This document shows positions 1,328 through 25,922 of a stretch of DNA of 37,160 nt, one piece after another. The DNA comes from Bdellovibrionales bacterium CG12_big_fil_rev_8_21_14_0_65_38_15 (GTDB lineage: Bacteria > Bdellovibrionota > Bacteriovoracia > Bacteriovoracales > Bacteriovoracaceae): contig PCUW01000024.1 of NCBI GenBank assembly GCA_002787775.1, positions 1 through 37,160 on the forward strand. Reading direction: 5' to 3'. The notes beneath the pieces are model-generated. The model was not told the DNA's origin and made no database searches. It saw only the letters and a program-made list of their open reading frames with translations. Every line of letters begins with the position of its first letter. Position 1 is the first letter of the stretch. Position numbers and translations under genes: made by a program.

Positions 1328-3142
1328 TTGAAGATTTTTCTTAGCCTAATCTTTTTTAGTCTAAGCCTTGGCGCAACTGAGCTGGAAGTGCTTTCAAAGC
1401 ATCCCATCTGGTTGCGCTTATTACATTTTGAAGATTCAACATCAAGAGTTGATTCCCAGGAATACTTCATTCATCCTCAGGGAAATGTTAATTCTAAGCT
1501 CGAGCTAGAGGCTACCATCAAAGCTTTTAATGAAAATCAAACACTTGGAAATGATCCATGGAAAGCTGCTTGTTCTTTTCCTGCTCGTTATCAATTCTTA
1601 ATAGATCATGGTTTTAAATTTCCAAAACCAGACTGCGTTGATTACAACGCTTGGAGAAAACAGTTAGATATTAAAAGCGTGTCTCTTGTTTTCTCATCTT
1701 ATTACCCAGGAAATCCTGCCAGTATTTTTGGCCATACTTTTTTAAAATTAAACTTTGATGAAAACCATGTTTCGAAGTTAACCGACTATGCGGTGAGTTT
1801 TTCTGCCAGAGCAACTGATCCAATGGGAGTCATCTACGCTTTAAAAGGATTACTTGGCGGCTATCAAGCTTTTTATGAGATCAGTCCGTATTATATGAAG
1901 CTCAACGAGTACGTCCATACCGAAAGTCGAGATATTTGGGAATATCCCATTGTCTTAAGTCCATTACAAATTGATAGGCTCTTAGCACATTTATGGGAAC
2001 AATATAAAAAAGCCTCTTATTCCTATTGGTTTACAAAAGAAAACTGCTCTTTTCAATTGCTCGCCTTATTAGATGTTGCCTTTGGCGATACAAATTTGGC
2101 CGAAGAAAGTGAGCTTACCGTTTTACCTGCCAAGACTGTCAAACAAGTCGATGCCACTGGAAAACTTGGTCTTGGTACAATTAGACCTTCATTTAAAAAG
2201 CAACTTCTCTATCGCTACAACTTATTAAATCAATCAGAACGCCAAGAATATGAACAAGAACTTGATCAAAAGTTTCAAAGTACAAATGCAAATGTTCTTG
2301 ATGCGGTTATTGCAAAAATTCGTTATGAACAACTTAAAGTCAATGAAGATGCTGAGAAGAGAAAGGAAATTTCAAAAAAACTTTTACCTATCCTTCAAAG
2401 ACGTGCCGCTCTTAAAGTTAAAACTGAAGACTTTAATAAGCAGTGGTATGAGTCCATGAGTGAAGAAAATCCAGTACGATCACACAATTCAAGCAAGATT
2501 CAAATCAATTCTGGTATCAGAAATGATAAATCGGTTCTAGGAATTGAAGCGAGATTAGGTCTTCACTCTCCTACTGATAGAGAAGAAGGCTTGCCTCATC
2601 ATAGCGAAGTAAATTATTTATCTTTTTCAATCGATCATCGTGATGATCAAACTCTTGTTCAAAGTATAAGAATAGTTGATATTCTCTCCCTTCAACCAAA
2701 GACGACTGCAAACTCAGGTTTTTCTTGGCGTGCAGGTGCAGGCGCAATTCGACGTCTTGGCTACCGTGCAGGCTTAGCGCCACAAACGGCCTTCTCAATT
2801 GGTTATTCAATTGCCCCAATACGTAGTCTTTCACTTTATTCACTCATTGGAGCTGAAGCTTCTGTGCATACAAGAAAGATCAAAGATGTCGCCATCGGCA
2901 ATAATTTTGAGCTGGGTTTAATTTATACGCCTAGCTGGTTTAAATTACGTCATCATTTAATGGGTTATGTTTTTCATGATTACAATAGAAGACGTCCATG
3001 GATCAAAGCCTCTCTTACCTCGCAATATGCCTTAAATAAAAAGTGGGAAGTTGGTCTTAAGGGACAATATATTTTTAACACTCCTTATCAATATCAAAAA
3101 AAATCAGACGAATATCTGGCCATGATCCTTCGACATTTCTAA
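1328..3142 (+). CDS. Lnb N-terminal periplasmic domain (DUF4105) protein
   Basis: 604 residues with a signal peptide (MKIFLSLIFFSLSLGA). Residues about 115-250 carry the DUF4105/Lnb signature: SSYYPGNPASIFGHTFLKL (His136), the ESRDIWEYP block near 199-207, and KENCSFQLLALL (Cys240). The order GH then NC fits a circularly permuted papain/NlpC-like fold, so an enzymatic role on lipid, peptide or glycan amide bonds is plausible but unproven. The C-terminal third (about 380-604) is rich in beta strands with alternating aromatic residues (RAGAGAIRRLGY, PQTAFSIGYSI, MGYVFHDYNRRR) and ends in ILRHF, like an outer-membrane barrel. The TTG start abuts the upstream stop (TAATTG) with no clear Shine-Dalgarno, suggesting translational reinitiation. 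Confidence 0.8.
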   Translation: MKIFLSLIFFSLSLGATELEVLSKHPIWLRLLHFEDSTSRVDSQEYFIHPQGNVNSKLELEATIKAFNENQTLGNDPWKAACSFPARYQFLIDHGFKFPKPDCVDYNAWRKQLDIKSVSLVFSSYYPGNPASIFGHTFLKLNFDENHVSKLTDYAVSFSARATDPMGVIYALKGLLGGYQAFYEISPYYMKLNEYVHTESRDIWEYPIVLSPLQIDRLLAHLWEQYKKASYSYWFTKENCSFQLLALLDVAFGDTNLAEESELTVLPAKTVKQVDATGKLGLGTIRPSFKKQLLYRYNLLNQSERQEYEQELDQKFQSTNANVLDAVIAKIRYEQLKVNEDAEKRKEISKKLLPILQRRAALKVKTEDFNKQWYESMSEENPVRSHNSSKIQINSGIRNDKSVLGIEARLGLHSPTDREEGLPHHSEVNYLSFSIDHRDDQTLVQSIRIVDILSLQPKTTANSGFSWRAGAGAIRRLGYRAGLAPQTAFSIGYSIAPIRSLSLYSLIGAEASVHTRKIKDVAIGNNFELGLIYTPSWFKLRHHLMGYVFHDYNRRRPWIKASLTSQYALNKKWEVGLKGQYIFNTPYQYQKKSDEYLAMILRHF

Positions 3143-22752: not shown

Positions 22753-22796
22753 CACACTCCCCCCTTTTCTTGTTTATTCGTGCTAACTTATGCACC

Positions 22797-24581
22797 ATGT
22801 CAAAACTTATTTTAGCCCTATTCTGTCTTTTAAGTACTAGCGCTTTTGCATCCAGCGATTTTGGTTTTGTCATTTCTGGAGCTGATGAAGCCTCAGGTAC
22901 CTCTAAAATTGAATACAATCGCCTTAAAGGTTTCTTTCAGAGTCTTGAAAGTGAAATGCGTGATGGAGTTACTTTTGGAGTTGATCGCATCATCGACATC
23001 CAATTTGTCGACTTTGGAATTGATCCAACACCAAAATGCGATGGCAGTAATAATGATGATATTTTACGAGTTGTTGGAGATTCAACTGTAGAGATTAACT
23101 CATCAATCAGAAATTCTATTTTAGATTTCGCTACTTTCAAGCAAGATGATAAAGGTTGTAGCCTTCAAAAAAATCTTCTAAATGCGCTTGAAACACAACT
23201 TCTAAAAATTCAATACGTCCGTGATCTTGATCAAGATTGGAGTAAAGTTGAAAGACGTTCACTCAACACTTGTTGGGATGAGCGCCGTGAGTACGGCCAT
23301 CGATGGTTCAGTGAAAATCCTCACTTTAGAGATCTGTGTGGAATCTTATTTAAGATTCAAGATCGCCGCCAGGACATGAAACGCCACAAGCGTAAAACTA
23401 AAAATCTTTTATACAATTCTGGAAAGCTCGAGTTTGATCCAAGCTCTTTTGCCGAAACAGACCTTCGTCGTTATAAAATATGCGAGCGAGATTATAAACC
23501 AACTAAAGTTTTAGATAATGGTACTCGCATGAAAATGCTTGGTATGGCCATCGTTTATATGTCACCTGGCTTTCAAACATCACAGGCAGGTCACGTTGCC
23601 GAACGCTATATCTATTGCAAAAATAATGAACTCGTCGATATGTTATTTGAATATACACAAATGACAGAAGAAGAACTTGTAAACGCTAGATCTGTTTATC
23701 AAAAACATCTTCCATTTGTTAGCGATGAGTATATTAGTAGCCTTAATGAAACCATCTATATCAAAGTCAGAAGTCATCCTGGCAGCTCACGTATGGAAGG
23801 TTATGGCTTTCATCAGCTGTATCTCAATCGTGATGTGGCTGAAGTATGGCCAAAAGTTTCTGAGACTGAAATTTATGAAGGACTTCAAGTTTCACTCAAA
23901 AACTATATTGAGCAAGGACAGAACTTTAAAAACCAAGTTCGTTTTGAACCTTATTCACTGCTTAAAAATAACTGCACTCATCCCATTCGCGAAAGACTTA
24001 ATCGTCTTGGCGGCGAATATGAAATTGATAATGTCACTGGCTTTAATCCTATTTGGATCTTTAATTTTCTTAAAAAGAAAACAGCTGATAAAATGATTAT
24101 CTACCCTTCACAGCGTCTTATGAGAAAAATGGAAATGCTTGAAACAGGTAAATCAATGTTCTGGGAAAATACTACTTTTTGGTCTAAAGCATCAAATGGT
24201 CGTGAAGGCTTAGGGCCTGGATTTATGGTTTTCTATCCTGAAGTTCACGGGACTCTAAAAAGCTTAATCTTAAAGCCTGCCATGGGTGCTGTTAATATTG
24301 CAGCATCAGTGGTTCAAGTGGCCGTTGGAATTCTACAATTACCACTTAAACTTTTATCAAAAGTTCCTGGTTTTAGATGGCTTGAGAAAGCGACAGGCGG
24401 CCATAATTTAGTCTACGGTCTACGTGGTATAACACTTCATCTTCCAGAACTGGTAGGTTTTAGACTTCGCTACCCTATGCCAACTCCATGGACCCCAGAA
24501 GAATTAGAATTCGTTGAGGATGTTCTTCCTAATCATGATCCAAAGATCGTCAACTATCTCATGGAGAAGGTTTCTAAGTAG
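22797..24581 (+). CDS. Exported GH...NC (Lnb/DUF4105-like) protein
   Basis: 594 residues from the ATG at 22797, where a signal peptide (MSKLILALFCLLSTSAFASS) begins. The first 200 mature residues are unrelated to known domains and contain six cysteines. Residues about 240-410 carry a permuted papain-like arrangement: YMSPGFQTSQAGHVAERYIYC (His266) and SLLKNNCTHPIRERLNRLGG (Cys393). This is the same order as in the Lnb-like gene at 1328. Residues about 487-515 form an apolar segment (AVNIAASVVQVAVGILQLPL) that may enter a membrane. No strong Shine-Dalgarno is seen. The product is probably a periplasmic or outer-membrane amidase or acyl-transfer enzyme, with moderate certainty for the fold and low for the activity. 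Confidence 0.7.
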   Translation: MSKLILALFCLLSTSAFASSDFGFVISGADEASGTSKIEYNRLKGFFQSLESEMRDGVTFGVDRIIDIQFVDFGIDPTPKCDGSNNDDILRVVGDSTVEINSSIRNSILDFATFKQDDKGCSLQKNLLNALETQLLKIQYVRDLDQDWSKVERRSLNTCWDERREYGHRWFSENPHFRDLCGILFKIQDRRQDMKRHKRKTKNLLYNSGKLEFDPSSFAETDLRRYKICERDYKPTKVLDNGTRMKMLGMAIVYMSPGFQTSQAGHVAERYIYCKNNELVDMLFEYTQMTEEELVNARSVYQKHLPFVSDEYISSLNETIYIKVRSHPGSSRMEGYGFHQLYLNRDVAEVWPKVSETEIYEGLQVSLKNYIEQGQNFKNQVRFEPYSLLKNNCTHPIRERLNRLGGEYEIDNVTGFNPIWIFNFLKKKTADKMIIYPSQRLMRKMEMLETGKSMFWENTTFWSKASNGREGLGPGFMVFYPEVHGTLKSLILKPAMGAVNIAASVVQVAVGILQLPLKLLSKVPGFRWLEKATGGHNLVYGLRGITLHLPELVGFRLRYPMPTPWTPEELEFVEDVLPNHDPKIVNYLMEKVSK

Positions 24582-24653
24582 ATTTAACTTCTTTTTCTAA
24601 TTTTTTTGATTATCATTTAACTAAAGAAAATAATCAAAATGTTAGGAGCTTTA

Positions 24654-25922
24654 GTGAATCAACGTGGATTTAGCCTTGTCTCTGTCATGGTCGCTGCAGG
24701 ATTAGTTGGTGGACTTGCTCTTGCTGTTATGCAAATTACGAAAAATTCTCAAACTGGATTAAAGTTTGCTGAATCTATAAGTGACGAAATTGATCTTCGT
24801 GAAAATATTAAAGCAATTGTCAGCAACCCTTCATTTTGTCGTTTAAGTATCGCTGGCAACGGCGCTGAAGGCTCACCATCAAGTCCGGTTATTTTTAAGA
24901 AAAATTTAAACGACCAAGATAATGAAGGTTTAGATATAGAGTTTTTCCTTGGCAATCAACTTGGAACAGCTCGAACCACAAAAAAATACAGTGGATCGGA
25001 CTCAAGTGCTAATACGTATAATGGTCTAACTATCAAATCAATTAAGCTTATTTTTGATAATGGAACAGGCTTTAATTATTCCACAAGTTCTTTTCATCAA
25101 GACATAGCAAAAATCAGATTAGTCTTTGAAAAAAAATACGATAAGGCCATTCGTGAAAAACAAATGGATTTTCAAACAACAGTATCGATGCAAACAGATG
25201 TTTTAGGTAATTCAACTCTTTTAGGATGTAATCTCACTCCAGCAAACGCACCCGCTGGAGCACCTCTTAATATTATTGCCATTCACTCTCAAACATCATC
25301 TCCTCCTGGTTGTCCTGCAGACTGGGATTTACTTTGGTCAGGCTATAGTTTCTTTACCGCGATTGGAGGACAAAGCTCAAATGCGAGGGCCGATCTAGGA
25401 AGTCCTGGTTCATGCCTTGAAACATTTAAACATCAACCCATGATCGAGTGTACGACATCGACATGTGACTACCATACATCAAATGATTTTTCCTACTGGC
25501 TAACAAATACTAATGCTAATACTGGAACAATTAATGGCTCAAGTGCAATGGGCTACATCAGTCGTTGTTCAGTTTGTGCAGCAAAAATACAAACACTAAC
25601 TCGACATAGTTTTTCTGGAGCTACGCCAGTGTGTCCTGCTGGATGGAGCAGCTTATGGGTAGGATATACATTCATGACAGGAGTTGGAGGTTTAGGCTCT
25701 AATGCCAACCAAGACCTAGCATCAACCGGATCTTGCTTGAAACTCTTTAGACCAATGCCATTTGCAGAATGCGAGGGGCCAGGTATTGGTAATTGTGATG
25801 TTGCCACTGGCGATGACTTCGCCTACTGGGGAACAAACAGAAGTGTCGACGAAAGCCCAGTTCCAGCAAATACAGCGACCAGTAAGCTTAGCCGTTGTAA
25901 CGTTTGTAGTTTAGGATATTAA
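24654..25922 (+). CDS. Type IV prepilin-like protein with C-terminal tandem collagen-IV NC1 (C4)-like domain
   Basis: 422 residues from the GTG at 24654, chosen because AGGAG is five bases upstream and it yields a classical short prepilin leader MNQRG|FSLVSVMVAAGLVGGLALAV; an ATG five codons earlier lacks a ribosome site. Position +5 of the mature pilin is Ser, not Glu, as in some minor pilins. Residues about 35-195 form a pilin-like globular part. Residues 207-422 are two repeats of about 107 residues, each with six cysteines: 220, 254, 266, 271, 305, 308 and 327, 361, 373, 381, 415, 418. Signatures IAIHSQTSSPPGCP, LGSPGSCL, FSYWL and YISRCSVC match vertebrate collagen IV NC1 as I remember it. 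There is no collagen triple helix. Probable role: pilus-tip or surface adhesion module. Confidence 0.85.
   Translation: MNQRGFSLVSVMVAAGLVGGLALAVMQITKNSQTGLKFAESISDEIDLRENIKAIVSNPSFCRLSIAGNGAEGSPSSPVIFKKNLNDQDNEGLDIEFFLGNQLGTARTTKKYSGSDSSANTYNGLTIKSIKLIFDNGTGFNYSTSSFHQDIAKIRLVFEKKYDKAIREKQMDFQTTVSMQTDVLGNSTLLGCNLTPANAPAGAPLNIIAIHSQTSSPPGCPADWDLLWSGYSFFTAIGGQSSNARADLGSPGSCLETFKHQPMIECTTSTCDYHTSNDFSYWLTNTNANTGTINGSSAMGYISRCSVCAAKIQTLTRHSFSGATPVCPAGWSSLWVGYTFMTGVGGLGSNANQDLASTGSCLKLFRPMPFAECEGPGIGNCDVATGDDFAYWGTNRSVDESPVPANTATSKLSRCNVCSLGY
25272..25919 (+). repeat. Tandem C4/NC1-like repeat inside the prepilin gene
   Basis: Two protein repeats (25272-25577 and about 25605-25919) with a period of 107 codons. 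Cysteine spacing is 34-12-5-34-3 in the first and 34-12-8-34-3 in the second. DNA identity is low, so the duplication is old, as in animal NC1, where the two halves are also ancient. Confidence 0.85.

Follow-up and report, generated by a model that had tools for sequence, protein, structure and literature searches.

What is a collagen IV NC1 domain doing at the end of a prepilin-like protein in a bacterium? The question is raised by a gene on contig PCUW01000024.1 of Bdellovibrionales bacterium CG12_big_fil_rev_8_21_14_0_65_38_15 (assembly GCA_002787775.1). The whole contig (37160 bases), referred to below as the window, was analysed; it belongs to a genome of 3.3 Mb that is 92.7% complete. 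A first-pass annotation, made from the sequence alone, had described the gene product as a pilin with a C-terminal tandem NC1 (C4) domain of six cysteines per half and had proposed a surface oligomerisation or adhesion head. Sequence comparison confirms the NC1-headed modular pilin as a real, recurrent fusion. The protein is probably a minor pilin of the pilus tip, whose NC1 head would trimerise and bind a cell or surface.

The NC1 head

The identity of the head as NC1 is confirmed, far above chance level. The Pfam C4 model (PF01413) matched the window protein (P0001) in two stretches with 188.1 bits (expect value, E, 5.3e-56), well over its cut-off of 27. In a phmmer search against chains of the PDB, residues 207/208–418 aligned over their full length with NC1 of collagen IV, the best match to single-NC1 chains having an E of 2.8e-40. 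The cysteines lie at residues 220, 254, 266, 271, 305 and 308 of the first half and 327, 361, 373, 381, 415 and 418 of the second. Each aligns with one of the 12 cysteine columns of NC1, and the full set of 12 is kept in 15 of the 20 bacterial-type rows of the alignment. The tandem NC1 was thus recognised correctly in the first-pass annotation. The motifs it listed (HSQT, GSCL, YW and SRC-x-VC) are also present as claimed, except that the second half reads HSFS and not HSQT.

An AlphaFold2 model built from 8 sequences had a mean predicted local distance difference test score (pLDDT) of 71 and a predicted template modelling score (pTM) of 0.52. A Foldseek search with this model gave 42 matches at E ≤ 0.001, every one of them a collagen IV NC1 chain. 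The best 32 had template modelling (TM) scores by target of 0.82–0.86 and a root-mean-square deviation (rmsd) of 2.6–3.2 Å over 223–229 columns; among the other ten were four fusion chains of several NC1 domains, which fitted poorly as a whole (rmsd 13–15 Å). The head is predicted to take the NC1 fold. Comparison with PF01413 and with solved NC1 structures had both been proposed as checks, and both came out in favour of NC1. No Gly-X-Y run was seen in the window protein and Pfam gave no collagen match to it, in agreement with the earlier description of a pilin stem without a collagen helix.

Recurrence in the phylum

The NC1-pilin fusion is not confined to the window. Matches to C4 above the cut-off were found in 6 of the 368 genomes of the phylum (the window's own included), representing 6 of 181 genera and four families; none of 14 control genomes had a match over the cut-off. 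These six genomes hold 12 C4 genes: one each in G000 (the genome of the window), G022, G098, G222 and G349, and seven in G358. All 12 encode a prepilin-like N-terminus, as judged by a loose motif, so that the listing of bacterial C4 proteins and their N-terminal parts, also suggested at first pass, returned the same combination in each of these genomes. The seven NC1 pilins of G358 (open frames of 521–624 aa) lie in two runs, one of three genes and one of four (L024 7973-13168; L025 3986-10793); five have two C4 stretches and two have one. The C4 gene of G349 matches P0038 (Oligoflexia bacterium). In G022 the NC1 pilin gene (L020 5846-7134) is broken in frame within the first C4 half, representing either an assembly error or a pseudogene.

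A domain known chiefly from animals, on a contig of a draft genome, might suggest an assembly chimera or eukaryotic contamination. This is refuted by the present data: the gene has an open frame and a ribosome-binding site, bacterial-looking genes lie on both sides of it, the cluster of the window protein comprises 10 member sequences on 12 contigs, and relatives occur in five further genomes. Contamination is excluded because the C4 genes of the phylum, 12 in number and spread over six genomes, are all prepilin-like.

Metagenome contigs also carry a second architecture, in which a membrane or signal anchor is followed by a short motif and a C4 pair, with no pilin stem (P0008, P0009, P0046). 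P0008 and P0009, each from a contig of 23156 bases, are likely to lie on one contig, and the two C4 halves of P0046 are nearly identical. P0133 is an anchor-type C4 protein represented by the first half.

N-terminus, stem and position 5

The N-terminus is of prepilin type, having a short charged leader, a Gly cut site (between VNQRG and FSLVS) and a hydrophobic helix with a mean hydropathy of 1.99 over 22 residues. In the AlphaFold2 model the stem is beta-rich to about residue 193, and the linker that follows is loose. Stems 34–49% identical to that of the window protein carry other heads, for which reason it is best described, from its sequence, as a modular pilin with exchangeable heads, the pilin part being judged from the N-terminus and the helix.

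A head labelled GDVN here occurs on the stems of P0010, P0017, G043, G046 and G050, and the G043 stem is almost identical to that of P0017 (Halobacteriovorax marinus). Dermatopontin is a domain of the animal matrix, and a dermatopontin head (PF14704, 118 bits) is carried on a stem of the same family in P0035 (387 aa, on a 2016-base contig). A related stem without a head is found at G022:C43. Pilins of Bdellovibrionales and Bacteriovorax that are similar at their N-termini have an S74 chaperone head (L079 3959-5167, 47.7 bits) or a long fibre-like tail (L077 3938-5890). P0044 also has a long fibre-like tail; the tails and the S74 head recall the MAT fibres of Bdellovibrio.

In a tree built from 22 stems, in which many forks are weak and from which the divergent stems P0038, G222 and G358 were left out, the nine NC1 stems do not form one clade. 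Five changes were counted (bootstrap range 4–5), and a single NC1-stem clade was rejected by the approximately unbiased (AU) test (p-AU 0.0003). On this single family of stems, heads have thus been swapped, or have been lost and later gained anew.

At the pilus tip, minor pilins are described as forming a complex whose cap is a subunit that lacks Glu5, and CofB as a trimer located there (PMC10191384). Of the 16 NC1 pilins with an intact N-terminus, 11 have a residue other than Glu at position 5. In G358, position 5 is Glu, Glu and Gln in the run of three, and Glu, Glu, Gln and Gly in the run of four; the three-gene run looks like a heterotrimeric tip set, with the Glu5 pattern expected of a tip complex.

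Several results qualify the reading as a tip pilin. The first-pass annotation had called the N-terminus a standard prepilin signal; the leader before the cut is indeed prepilin-like, but the Pfam N_methyl model gave 14.7 bits, below its cut-off of 21.2. The stem of the window protein had no significant match to any solved pilin. Glu5 is missing also in 5 of 7 other-headed pilins, and its absence is therefore a mark of the stem family. The low N_methyl score is shared by proteins of this kind, 13 of the 14 scanned being below the cut-off, so that most of them would escape a survey that relied solely on the Pfam prepilin model as its seed.

Residues of animal hexamer assembly

According to PMC6527180, the chloride switch of collagen IV depends on Arg76, Asp/Glu78 and Glu175, and Arg/Lys179 serves in the ring; the sulfilimine bond is described as joining Met93 to Hyl211 (hydroxylysine; PMC13098435). 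These positions, numbered after a bird alpha-1 chain, were compared in 20 bacterial-type and 6 animal rows. Arg76 and Arg/Lys179 occur in none of the 20 bacterial-type rows (the window protein has Ser and Pro there), as against 6/6 and 5/6 of the animal rows shown. Met93 and Lys211 are likewise absent from all 20, and each is present in 4/6 animal rows shown; this comparison is weaker and its alignment less sure because column 93 is gapped in 2/6 and column 211 in 1/6 of those animal rows. Asp78 and Glu175 are each present in 17 of 20 bacterial-type rows. Since residues of the animal hexamer mechanism are absent from the bacterial-type rows, chloride-driven hexamer assembly and sulfilimine bonding are not expected of the bacterial NC1. 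Their absence may still be compatible with trimerisation.

Proposed function

In animals, NC1 joins three collagen chains. From this property, the exchange of heads and the missing Glu5, we infer that a surface oligomerisation or adhesion head, as first suggested, is the best-supported reading. Prepilin peptidase would cleave after Gly5, and the mature protein would be the first to enter the filament, since it lacks Glu5 and has a bulky head. Three NC1 heads would then associate by way of the trimer interface of NC1 and so keep three pilin stems together in a single complex at the tip, which may be likened to the CofB/TcpB tip trimer or to the PilABC and KilLMN heterotrimers. A three-pilin tip held by its heads is suggested by the joining of three chains by NC1 in animals, and by the S74 domains, which are described as ensuring trimerisation (PMC10769870). 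The outer face of the trimer would act as an adhesin for prey, host or particles. Binding of prey or of a surface is the likeliest role, by analogy, because Bdellovibrio and the predator Myxococcus are described as meeting prey with variable proteins that are trimeric or are tip pilins (PMC10769870, PMC12075869).

The head could instead be an assembly part that trimerises tip pilins and thereby starts the polymerisation of the pilus or provides a dock for a separate, secreted protein. The trimers formed by NC1 in animals and the clustering of NC1 pilins in G358, with three in one run and four in the other, are consistent with this, as is the description of minor-pilin tip complexes as starting assembly (PMC10191384). 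It is nevertheless the less likely explanation: just 6/368 genomes have the domain and related stems carry differing heads, unlike a core assembly component. A ligand-facing role fits better because the heads are exchanged.

The genome has eight T2SSE-type ATPase matches and one match to a prepilin peptidase, a weak one at 29 bits (cut-off 26.5). It also has a row of three further pilin-like genes on G000:C59 (L064 6946-9717). The eight ATPase matches would also suit a type II secretion pseudopilin that pushes substrates out and has no part in adhesion, and a relative, P0004, is annotated as 'type II secretory pathway pseudopilin PulG'. That name may have been given from the N-terminus alone, and the S74, dermatopontin and NC1 heads on similar stems are better suited to surface display, making a pseudopilin improbable.

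Gene model and genomic setting

The coordinates of the gene and its parts are given in the table. An alternative start, ATG at 24639, lies 15 bases upstream of the GTG. The GTG is preferred because of the AGGAG ahead of it and because P0003 (86% identical) starts at the matching residue.

Table. Features of the NC1-headed prepilin gene and its surroundings in the window.
Feature	Residues	Position	Strand	Basis or remark
NC1-headed prepilin gene	1-422	24654..25922	+	Open frame, GTG start, 422 aa; P0003 begins at same residue
AGGAG, likely ribosome-binding site		24644..24648	+	5 bases ahead of GTG; read from sequence
Short leader, VNQRG	1-5	24654..24668	+	Predicted prepilin peptidase cut after Gly5; mature start FSLVS; position 5 is Ser, not Glu
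Predicted long N-terminal helix	8-57 (9-57 in second prediction)	24675..24824	+	Model; low pLDDT in first part
Pilin-like stem	6-193	24669..25232	+	Conserved with other-headed relatives up to Cys192
Linker	194-206	25233..25271	+	Between stem and NC1 matches; pLDDT <50 at 195-202
First C4 half of NC1 module	207-309	25272..25580	+	Pfam C4, alignments, Foldseek
Second C4 half of NC1 module	314-419	25593..25910	+	Pfam C4, alignments, Foldseek

By inspection, the remaining genes of the window look like ordinary bacterial genes, and four of them were run against Pfam. The gene directly before the pilin (22770-24581) had no Pfam match at E ≤ 0.01. The protein encoded at 1328-3142 has an Lnb N-terminal periplasmic domain (PF13387, 165 bits).

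Origin of the bacterial NC1

In a tree of 45 NC1 sequences, 10 bacterial-type rows fall on one side (support 99/95) and so do the animal rows, 33 in number (96/85). The branches of the bacterial-type sequences are longer. Two tandem C4 proteins, P0043 and P0144, adjoin the animals. This tree omits ten bacterial-type rows that were divergent or nearly duplicated others, its row labels were partly set by hand, and no ctenophore, sponge or Ministeria row was identified in it. Tests with the half-domains did not discriminate (p-AU 0.11–0.36). Recent transfer from the sampled animals is unlikely because the bacterial-type NC1s lie outside the animal ones.

A head acquired recently from an animal, which would mimic or bind animal basement membrane, is accordingly hard to maintain and very improbable. 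The bacterial head is 33–43% identical to the animal NC1s found, and the domain is otherwise described, in the sources cited here, from animals and one filasterean (PMC5395295, PMC5560861). In composition the NC1 part stands slightly apart from 13 neighbouring genes, its codon score of 0.112 being just under their range (0.132–0.235) and its G+C of 0.44 just over it (0.359–0.429); G+C at third codon positions is 0.303, inside the range of 0.266–0.331. Set against these are the separation and longer bacterial branches of the NC1 tree, the absence of the chloride and sulfilimine residues, and the presence of C4 genes in four families of the phylum. The opposite direction would have NC1 as, at first, a trimeriser of bacterial pilus tips, a module which an early holozoan took up and fused to collagen repeats, giving collagen IV. 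Adhesive tips of three pilins, made with tandem C4 modules by predatory bacteria and their relatives, would then have come first. This scenario is tentative and, on balance, doubtful.

The occurrence of NC1 pilins in four families of one phylum reopens the origin of a domain described as an animal or, at most, a holozoan invention (PMC5395295, PMC5560861). It may be relevant to how this domain, which is said to be central to animal tissues, first arose. Bacterial NC1s that lack the chloride and sulfilimine features are forms in which the oldest function of NC1 could be tested. For pilus biology, the fusion suggests that pilus tips can be organised by a domain already known as a trimeriser. The heads borne by one pilin stem family of Bdellovibrio-like bacteria now include one known from the animal matrix.

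Comparison with known systems

The first-pass annotation knew of no described system with this fusion, and a literature search found no account of bacterial NC1 or NC1 pilins among the papers listed, although it did not cover supplementary lists, including the architecture dataset of PMC8179133. Collagen IV NC1 (PF01413; PDB 1li1, 5nay) shares with the window protein the tandem C4 halves, the 12 cysteines and the predicted fold, but the window protein has a pilin stem, no Gly-X-Y helix, and none of Arg76, Arg179, Met93 and Lys211. Collagen IV is described as animal (PMC5395295); that of the filasterean Ministeria vibrans, as described in PMC5560861, has the C4-C4 pair outside animals, but is eukaryotic and has collagen repeats.

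The MAT fibres of Bdellovibrio are described as having trimeric adhesive tips and exchanged C-termini (PMC10769870), and an S74 head is found on L079, a pilin similar to the window protein at its N-terminus. Unlike the window protein, MAT fibres are not pilins, and the terms 'collagen' and 'NC1' are absent from the text of that paper. The Kil/Tad tips of Myxococcus, likened here by description only, are presented as minor pilins, in a predator, whose C-terminal domains vary, with four tip sets in one genome (PMC12075869). Modular pilins are reported as a group of more than 1200 proteins in 264 architectures (PMC8179133). Among them, PilB and PilC of Streptococcus sanguinis carry vWA or lectin grafts where the window protein carries NC1, and its stem fold is without a confident match; they have in common with it a pilin module, a grafted non-pilus domain that forms a bulky head, and a likely position at the tip (PMC8179133).
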